Below, piece by piece: positions 24,276-25,063 of a DNA stretch of 53,021 nucleotides. The translations under genes and the position numbers were made by a program. The number at the start of each line of letters is the position of its first letter. Position 1 is the first letter of the stretch. Location: positions 1 to 53,021 of the forward strand of contig JAFTIH010000004.1 in assembly GCA_017456985.1 (NCBI GenBank), written 5' to 3'. This stretch comes from Clostridia bacterium (GTDB lineage: Bacteria > Bacillota > Clostridia > Oscillospirales > CAG-272). The notes under the pieces were generated by a model, which worked only from the letters and a program-made list of their open reading frames with translations, was not told the origin of the DNA and ran no database searches.

Positions 24276-24303
24276 CTTCTTCATAATTGAATATTATTGG
24301 CAA

Positions 24304-24336
24304 AATACGGAGTCCCTTTTAGGAACTCCGTATTTT
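24304..24336 (+). terminator. Terminator of mnmG
   Basis: ATACGGAGT pairs with ACTCCGTAT (stem about 24305-24313 with 24324-24332), followed by TTTT, 29 bp beyond the mnmG stop. Confidence 0.8.
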
Positions 24337-24389
24337 AGCGTTTATATACCAAAAACGATATAAAAACGATATAAAAAGTCGCAAAAACC

Positions 24390-24418
24390 TTGACAATTCT
24401 CTTGCAATGTATTATAAT
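24390..24418 (+). promoter_or_regulatory. Promoter of the candidate structured RNA
   Basis: TTGACA (24390-24395), 17 bp, TATAAT (24413-24418): perfect consensus. The expected start site, about 24425, is exactly the first base of the long terminal helix described in the next entry. Confidence 0.85.
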
Positions 24419-24424
24419 ATCATC

Positions 24425-24638
24425 GTCACACAAAACTGAATTAACAAGTTGCAGGGAAAACTCTCTCTTTTTTTGAGAGAGCTTTGTTTCTATGCTTACT
24501 GTCAATAATGAATTTGGCAAAAATGCAAATTTCACTTGACAGTAGGTAGAGTTTTCTCTATACTTGTTAGGTTTTGTGTGACAACAATCGAAATTTGCGT
24601 TTTTCGGTGCGCATAGCTTCGGTTGTGCGCACTTTTTT
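24425..24638 (+). ncRNA. Candidate structured small RNA, 6S-RNA-like rod with its own promoter and terminator
   Basis: About 214 nt lie between a perfect promoter and a strong intrinsic terminator, with no convincing reading frame inside. The transcript folds on itself. A 12-bp perfect terminal helix joins 24425-24436 to 24571-24582. A 7-bp helix joins 24442-24448 to 24563-24569. An upper arm joins 24495-24505 to 24536-24546 (11 bp, one G-U) and 24510-24515 to 24527-24532, capped by GCA-AAAA-TGC. Between lower and upper arms both strands can open into a bubble: the 5' strand holds CTCTCTC-T7-GAGAGAG, and the 3' strand holds TAGAG-TTTT-CTCTA. Alternatively 24453-24464 pairs with 24548-24559. 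A closed rod with a central bubble is the shape of 6S RNA, but no primary-sequence identity to 6S was recognised. A leader RNA for the gene at 24659, or an inserted inverted-repeat element, are alternatives. Confidence 0.55.
24607..24638 (+). terminator. Intrinsic terminator with cUUCGg tetraloop
   Basis: An 11-bp stem (24607-24617 with 24622-24632, containing GTGCGCA/TGCGCAC and two G-U pairs) is closed by TTCG and followed by six T residues. It ends the candidate RNA and lies only 20 bp before the next start codon, so it could also act as an attenuator for that gene. Confidence 0.85.
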
Positions 24639-24658
24639 ATTTTAAGGAGGTCATCACT

Positions 24659-25063
24659 ATGTATGACAACATTGGCAACAAAATTAAAACATTAGCAAAA
24701 ATTTCGACATGGATAGGCATTGTTTTCGCTTTAATTCTGGGTATCGCCTTAATCGTTTTATTGGGAGCTTTTATAGGCCTTTTGGTAATGTTTGGAGTCA
24801 TTCTGATTGTTTGGATCACGTCATTTCCCCTCTATGCCTTAGGTGAAATCACAACCACACTCTCTGACATTGAAAGGAATACCCGTCCAAACCTTGCGAA
24901 TGGCGCAGAAACACCGAAAAAAAAGAAGATTTTCTCCCCTGCTCCAATAGCACCTGCCGACGGATCTACCCCTCAAATTGTCTGTCCCAAGTGCGGTACG
25001 CAGCACGATTTTGATTATCCCAAATGTCCTAAATGCAAATATGAGTACAATTGGGCGAAGTAA
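24659..25063 (+). CDS. Small membrane protein with C-terminal zinc ribbon
   Basis: A 134-aa protein of unknown function. Residues about 15-38 and 40-62 are strongly hydrophobic and probably form two membrane helices or a hairpin. A charged linker with KKKK follows, and the C-terminal 30 residues hold CPKCGTQHDFDYPKCPKCKYEY, a four-Cys zinc ribbon. AAGGAGG precedes the ATG at 24659; the longer reading frame starting at 24623 overlaps the terminator and is rejected. Base composition is lower in GC than the neighbours. It lies directly behind the structured-RNA terminator, so expression would need read-through or an unseen promoter. Confidence 0.75.
   Translation: MYDNIGNKIKTLAKISTWIGIVFALILGIALIVLLGAFIGLLVMFGVILIVWITSFPLYALGEITTTLSDIERNTRPNLANGAETPKKKKIFSPAPIAPADGSTPQIVCPKCGTQHDFDYPKCPKCKYEYNWAK

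Follow-up and report, generated by a model that had tools for sequence, protein, structure and literature searches.

A multicopy structured RNA family of gut Clostridia with a covarying loop-linker pairing and an intrinsic terminator: a candidate leader RNA

Introduction

Type III toxin-antitoxin systems are built in the order promoter, pseudoknotted RNA, terminator and gene, and the element described here has the same order of parts as their RNA (ToxI). A single genome can hold many riboswitches of the c-di-GMP type, placed in front of surface and regulatory genes; the element likewise occurs in many copies per genome, but no Rfam model matches over it. 6S RNA (RF00013) is alike in size and in having a terminal helix, whereas the element differs from it by its terminator, its pseudoknot and its leader position, which do not fit a 6S RNA. 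As a working precedent for an attenuator we take the guanidine-IV (GGAM-1) riboswitch, because it has a potential pseudoknot and its terminator stem belongs to the proposed binding structure; in the parts of PMC7736828 drawn on here, it is a leader RNA that acts by termination and sits upstream of several unrelated genes. The element shares with it the potential pseudoknot, the intrinsic terminator and the position as leader of several unrelated genes (PMC7736828, same parts). It differs in having a long terminal helix at its predicted 5' end and a length of about 215 nt, in occurring many times per genome, in preceding genes that are mostly of other kinds, and in lacking a match at curated cut-offs among the models that Rfam 15 contains.

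Leaders with a terminator and a pseudoknot are already known; what appears to be new here is the family itself, its distribution and the block-wise exchange of its interiors. The sections of PMC11109978, PMC8632094, PMC7736828 and PMC8040213 considered here do not describe it. PMC8040213 mentions 3161 candidates, listed in its supplements, and an unnamed earlier listing of the family among them is possible.

Anatomy of the element

We analysed a stretch of 53,021 nucleotides (contig JAFTIH010000004.1 of the Clostridia assembly GCA_017456985.1; henceforth the window), in which an original prediction had placed a structured RNA at 24390..24640. A base-by-base check confirmed this structure as real, with the following features.

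24390..24418, + strand: promoter, with TTGACA at 24390-24395, a 17-nt spacer and TATAAT at 24413-24418 (sequence)
24425..24437, + strand: 5' strand of P1, GTCACACAAAACT, its first base being the predicted transcription start (fold)
24442..24463, + strand: 5' strand of P2, comprising 24442-24449 and 24453-24463 (MFE fold)
24464..24480, + strand: internal hairpin P2a, stem 24464-24469/24475-24480 (MFE fold)
24493..24548, + strand: hairpin P3, stem 24493-24505/24536-24548 (MFE fold)
24519..24533, + strand: segment of the P3 apical loop, 5' strand of the pseudoknot, AAAAATGCAAATTTC (sequence)
24549..24582, + strand: 3' strands of P2 (24549-24559 and 24562-24569) and P1 (24570-24582) (fold)
24590..24604, + strand: linker, 3' strand of the pseudoknot, GAAATTTGCGTTTTT (sequence)
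24607..24638, + strand: intrinsic terminator with an 11-bp stem (24607-24617/24622-24632), a UUCG loop and six T at 24633-24638 (fold)
24644..24650, + strand: Shine-Dalgarno sequence AAGGAGG of the downstream gene (sequence)
24659..25063, + strand: downstream gene encoding a 134-aa protein (ORF)

The promoter is as perfect as had been claimed, in both hexamers and their spacing. Since six bases separate the -10 box from P1, transcription probably starts at G24425, the first base of the terminal helix, as originally proposed. P1 comprises 13 pairs in the window (24425-24437/24570-24582), and because the innermost of these is a G-U pair, the earlier count of a 12-bp perfect helix (24425-24436/24571-24582) was correct for Watson-Crick pairs. 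Second helices lie inside P1 (24442-24449/24562-24569 and 24453-24463/24549-24559), and the fold predicted for the element is a three-way junction formed by P1/P2 and the hairpins P2a and P3, in place of the 6S-like rod with two facing bubble hairpins that had been described. The key feature was absent from the original prediction: the loop segment 24519-24533 is fully complementary to the linker 24590-24604 over 15 bases, with one G-U pair, and the linker stops 2 nt short of the terminator stem. The UUCG-capped terminator said to end the transcript was recovered by folding, and the next gene does begin 20 nt past its T-run, with an ATG at 24659.

The RNA from 24425 to 24640 has an MFE of -89.7 kcal/mol, compared with a shuffle mean of -45.0 (sd 4.0; z -11.1), and 0 of 200 shuffles folded as low. 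The region was also correctly described as AT-rich amid GC-rich surroundings, with a GC content of 33% in 24281-24660 against 62% in mnmG and 53% in the window. Behind mnmG, an inverted repeat followed by a T-run (24300-24336) is probably that gene's own terminator, separating it from the element. The 134-aa downstream protein has a hydrophobic N-terminal half and a zinc-ribbon-like C-terminal end, with a weak Pfam match to Zn_ribbon_3 (19.2 bits; cut-off 27).

Covariation and the loop-linker pairing

Copies of the element share a common anatomy, i.e., a promoter, P1 at the predicted transcript start, a pairing between hairpin loop and linker, a terminator and a gene start; the loop-linker complementarity is typically 15 bp, and the linker lies just before the intrinsic terminator. 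Covariation tests took in P1, the loop-linker pairing and the terminator stem, while P2 and P3 rest on the MFE fold. Specifically, in a MAFFT alignment of 32 copies, made after six regex matches had been removed by hand, P1 showed two-sided changes in 10 of its 14 pairs (99.1% of cells paired), and the loop-linker pairing in 7 of its 15 (96.3%); 0 of 500 column shuffles reached the observed values for either helix, and slid versions were 36-55% paired. In a 29-copy alignment, from which three mis-trimmed matches had been removed, 7 of 10 pairs of the terminator stem changed on both sides, and the loop-linker pairing and the terminator exceeded 500 column shuffles and the slid versions on all measures reported. 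The search for compensatory changes in relatives that had been proposed as a check was thus positive for all three helices, which indicates a structure under selection.

The P3 loop carries a conserved GG[CT]AAAA, while the interiors vary strongly. Its AAAA sits in the pseudoknot and pairs with the last four T of the linker in 29/29 and 32/32 aligned sequences. For wider counts we used sets of 206 and 224 elements, which required P1 and a terminator by construction and retain a few false or mis-framed entries (e.g., L235:2032- and L171:144-). The longest loop-linker helix reached at least 10 bp in 203 of 224 elements, compared with 127 of 672 shuffled interiors that preserved base composition only. 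There are 59 distinct linkers among the 224 copies, many of which have identical loop and linker letters; two elements (L058:1790+ and L164:3179+) retain long loop-linker complementarity despite wholesale sequence change. Rare in the P1 core, where they take up 32 of 2058 cells (positions 3-12), G-U pairs are more frequent in the loop-linker pairing (425 of 2773).

In 191 of the 203 elements a local apical hairpin draws 4 nt or more from the pseudoknot segment into its 3' strand, and because the same loop letters are used, the apical hairpin and the loop-linker pairing compete. An internal hairpin adjoins a T-run in 144 of 224 members, a count whose listed rows do not include the window's P2a, and its 5' arm re-pairs distally in 99 of these (MFE); a hairpin in this position may be a folding intermediate or a pause.

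Promoter position and downstream genes

A -10 box precedes P1 in 193 of 206 elements, at a distance of 4-6 nt in 166; where a -35 box was found (161 elements), its spacing is 17 in 151. A Shine-Dalgarno sequence with a same-strand start codon lies at most 70 nt past the T-run in 167 of the 206, compared with 95 of 398 other terminators at the same loci; the remaining 39 elements have no qualifying gene start. Both features looked for in a cis-regulatory leader, an excess of gene starts after the terminator and a covarying structure, were therefore found. Of the two roles originally left open, the conditional leader fits better than the autonomous RNA gene because of this excess of gene starts.

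The downstream genes are very diverse and include six-cysteine, zinc-ribbon, membrane and lipoprotein-like proteins, with a lipobox-like motif in 20 of 167 and two or more CxxC in 34 of 167. When ten downstream proteins were scanned against Pfam, six matched families at E 0.01 (single examples being BspA-type, MazE/AbrB-like, SLOG and TfoX_N proteins) and four matched nothing. A six-cysteine member from the window's own genome (L003) likewise had no Pfam match. Within the genus, this family of 68-aa six-cysteine proteins gave 31 matches, spread over 21 of the 69 genomes, and all 21 fall within the 52 that contain a match to R1, a covariance model built from 29 copies of the element. Of the 31 six-cysteine loci found, 30 were fetched (L315-L344), and at 29 of these an R1 element lies directly upstream of the gene. 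Internal stops were present in 7 of the 31 matches, and some element-linked genes are therefore decaying. Homologues of the window's downstream protein gave a mixed picture: none of six distant ones (36-44% identity) has an element, and by eye elements at L025, L163 and L231 precede proteins similar to it.

Distribution of the family

The element belongs to a large RNA family of gut Clostridia that is absent from Rfam 15 and has many copies per genome. The window's own genome holds five diverged copies by R1, including the window element, and a first DNA search gave matches in 29 of 59 genomes, its own included. R1 matched 52 of 69 genomes of the genus, with up to 15 matches per genome. Beyond the genus, matches were found in 141 of 394 genomes of the order (73 of 168 genera), in 100 of 391 genomes of the class (59 of 223 genera) and, at E 1e-4, in 1 of 398 genomes of an even sample of the phylum that also contained some other genomes of the class, the single match being the own genome; these three counts are lower bounds, since only 8 candidates were scored per genome. 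About a quarter of the sampled class genomes thus carry an RNA family without an Rfam 15 match. The consensus pattern matches at least 118 stretches in records titled uncultured Clostridia, Oscillospiraceae and similar; among the pattern matches listed, many record titles refer to gut samples from deer, sheep, goat, yak or cattle, and two human faecal records also contain the element.

Two records filed as phages, MT835845 and MT835503, contain elements (90.7 and 76.9 bits, respectively). Because their flanking genes, presumably ClpB-like, YicC-like and MATE-like, look bacterial, we did not count them as phage evidence. In the second, a bacterial-looking record filed as a human faecal phage (MT835503.1; L307, 417-1723), the element lies ahead of two genes, which we take to encode an EcoRI-like DNA methyltransferase and an HNH/DUF262-like protein. 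A virus-borne element was rejected: a strict pattern matched 0 viral contigs, and the four matches of a looser pattern lack the element and look like chance. Plasmid searches returned no element matches.

At gathering cut-offs, Rfam 15 gave two tRNAs in the whole window and nothing over the element. At E 10 the window element had 17 matches to mixed families, all far below their cut-offs and none of them 6S, and 35 further distinct loci, four of which hold the own genome's other copies, showed no Rfam 15 match over any element. Together with the covariation in relatives, this supports the earlier suggestion of a new class of promoter-driven structured RNA.

Exchange of interiors

Interiors and downstream genes do not diverge in step. 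At six-cysteine loci where the 200 nt behind the terminator are 0.93-0.95 identical, interiors are either 0.85-0.92 or 0.66-0.68 alike, and at a downstream identity of 0.85-0.88 some interiors are as low as 0.57, which is the average for random pairs. The converse pair L066/L024 has a downstream identity of 0.77 and an interior identity of 0.95. In a tandem array of three copies (L060, 637-1323), the promoter, linker and terminator are nearly identical, the interiors are 0.69-0.74 alike, and each copy forms its own stems. Swapping structured interiors as blocks between nearly identical genes is an unusual way for an RNA to evolve.

Similar upstream flanks (84.5% alike over 155 nt between L013 and L034) suggest that interiors may have been exchanged in place, for which homologous recombination between the constant flanks would suffice. 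At some six-cysteine loci, a 1400-base stretch beginning 300 nt downstream showed no similarity, and synteny is thus lacking there on the downstream side; in view of this lack of further similarity, the gene could alternatively have moved together with its flank. Avoidance of like modules within genomes was considered and dropped: interiors at least 0.8 identical occurred in 1 of 165 within-genome pairs and 50 of 3405 pairs between genomes of the genus, a difference too weak to claim. Further tandem arrays, likewise combining constant flanks with differing interiors, were seen at L117, L118, L058 and L041, several of them without an intervening gene.

Transcription attenuation as the favoured reading

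We consider it probable (about 0.62) that the element acts in cis as a leader RNA, governing read-through of its terminator into the next gene. Transcription would start at the first base of P1, and the nascent RNA would fold as P1, P2 and P3. The P3 loop segment would then either stay in the local apical hairpin or pair with the linker, making a pseudoknot immediately ahead of the terminator. These states would be mutually exclusive, and the one formed while RNA polymerase is at the terminator would decide between termination and read-through. The signal could be a metabolite, a protein or an RNA.

Such an attenuator is supported by the covariation, the gene starts behind 167 of 206 elements, the linkage to six-cysteine genes at 29 of 30 loci and the promoter at a fixed distance. 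Against it stand the 39 of 206 elements without a gene start, tandem copies without a gene, the absence from all six distant homologues of the window's downstream protein, the decay of linked genes and the great diversity of the downstream genes. By eye, we saw no strand that pairs with the terminator arms as an antiterminator would. A NusG paralogue was rejected as a trans factor: it matches in 44 of 69 genomes, nearly always once, with or without elements. The possibility that the linker encodes a leader peptide was likewise dropped by eye, since some copies carry linker indels that disrupt such a frame.

On the attenuator reading, the element marks a set of genes, including lipoprotein, zinc-ribbon membrane, SLOG-like and AbrB/MazE-like ones, as probably controlled in one way, and offers a concrete, testable switch (loop versus linker before the terminator) in gut bacteria that here are represented chiefly by metagenomic data. 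A bolder extension, which we regard as tentative and rather doubtful, is a class-wide system in which a constant output (promoter, pseudoknot and terminator) is combined with exchangeable P1-P3 modules that serve as individual addresses or sensors. If so, these modules, which move between genes and rarely recur in one genome, would be read by some partner, and many accessory genes would be separately switchable by one mechanism.

Alternative explanations

The element is unlikely to be a stand-alone, trans-acting small RNA whose downstream gene is read only through leaky termination and whose conserved loop and linker act as antisense between copies or to other transcripts. Its own promoter and strong terminator would suit such an RNA, as would tandem copies that each have both and no gene between them, and the identical loop and linker letters of many copies (59 linkers among 224) make pairing between copies possible. 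The linkage in cis argues otherwise, both in the excess of gene starts right behind the element (167 of 206 versus 95 of 398) and at the six-cysteine loci (29 of 30). A second alternative, on the model of type III toxin-antitoxin systems with their like order of parts, would make the RNA the partner of the protein encoded behind it; some elements precede SLOG-like proteins, and one precedes what we take to be a DNA methyltransferase-like gene. Yet the downstream proteins are diverse and mostly unrelated to one another, none of the ten scanned against Pfam is a ToxN-like nuclease (four had no match), and the element RNA does not consist of an array of short tandem repeats, which makes a partnership of this kind very improbable.

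It is only slightly less improbable that the unit is a DNA-level element (an inverted-repeat transposon, an invertible segment or a recombination site), with the RNA fold as a by-product. The copy number, the almost G-U-free P1 core (32 of 2058, compared with 425 of 2773 in the loop-linker pairing), the exchange of interiors as blocks and the presence of elements in two phage-filed records, though with bacterial-looking flanks, could all be read in this way. However, the inverted repeat includes neither the linker nor the terminator, and still the loop-linker pairing and the terminator covary; plasmid searches yielded nothing, and the four viral pattern matches were without the element. An invertible segment in particular was rejected on orientation, as we saw no interior in reversed orientation: 178 of 206 elements carry the exact loop motif facing forward, and 27 of the remaining 28 keep a forward loop-linker helix of at least 8 bp. 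A mobile repeat at many loci had been named at the outset as what would speak against an RNA gene; the element is indeed multicopy, but its copies are unlike a simple mobile repeat, since they have diverged from one another with covariation, point forward and have genes behind them.

There remains the divergent 6S RNA of the original prediction, which length and terminal helix had suggested and which can now be given virtually no weight. RF00013 has no match on 24380-24660 even at E 10, and 6S RNA lies elsewhere both in the own genome, as a candidate, and in a relative (L233), where it scores above threshold (61 bits) about 350 nt downstream of the element; 6S identity was therefore rejected. 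The sole RF00013 match in the own genome, on another contig (C41:42651-42858, minus strand; L009, 1501-1708), scores 38.8 bits against a cut-off of 46.4 and is possibly its true 6S RNA. On a further contig of the same genome (C18; L003), two Gut-1 RNAs (RF01706; 906-983 on the + strand and 1047-1128 on the - strand) are oppositely oriented and located some 200-430 nt upstream of an element.
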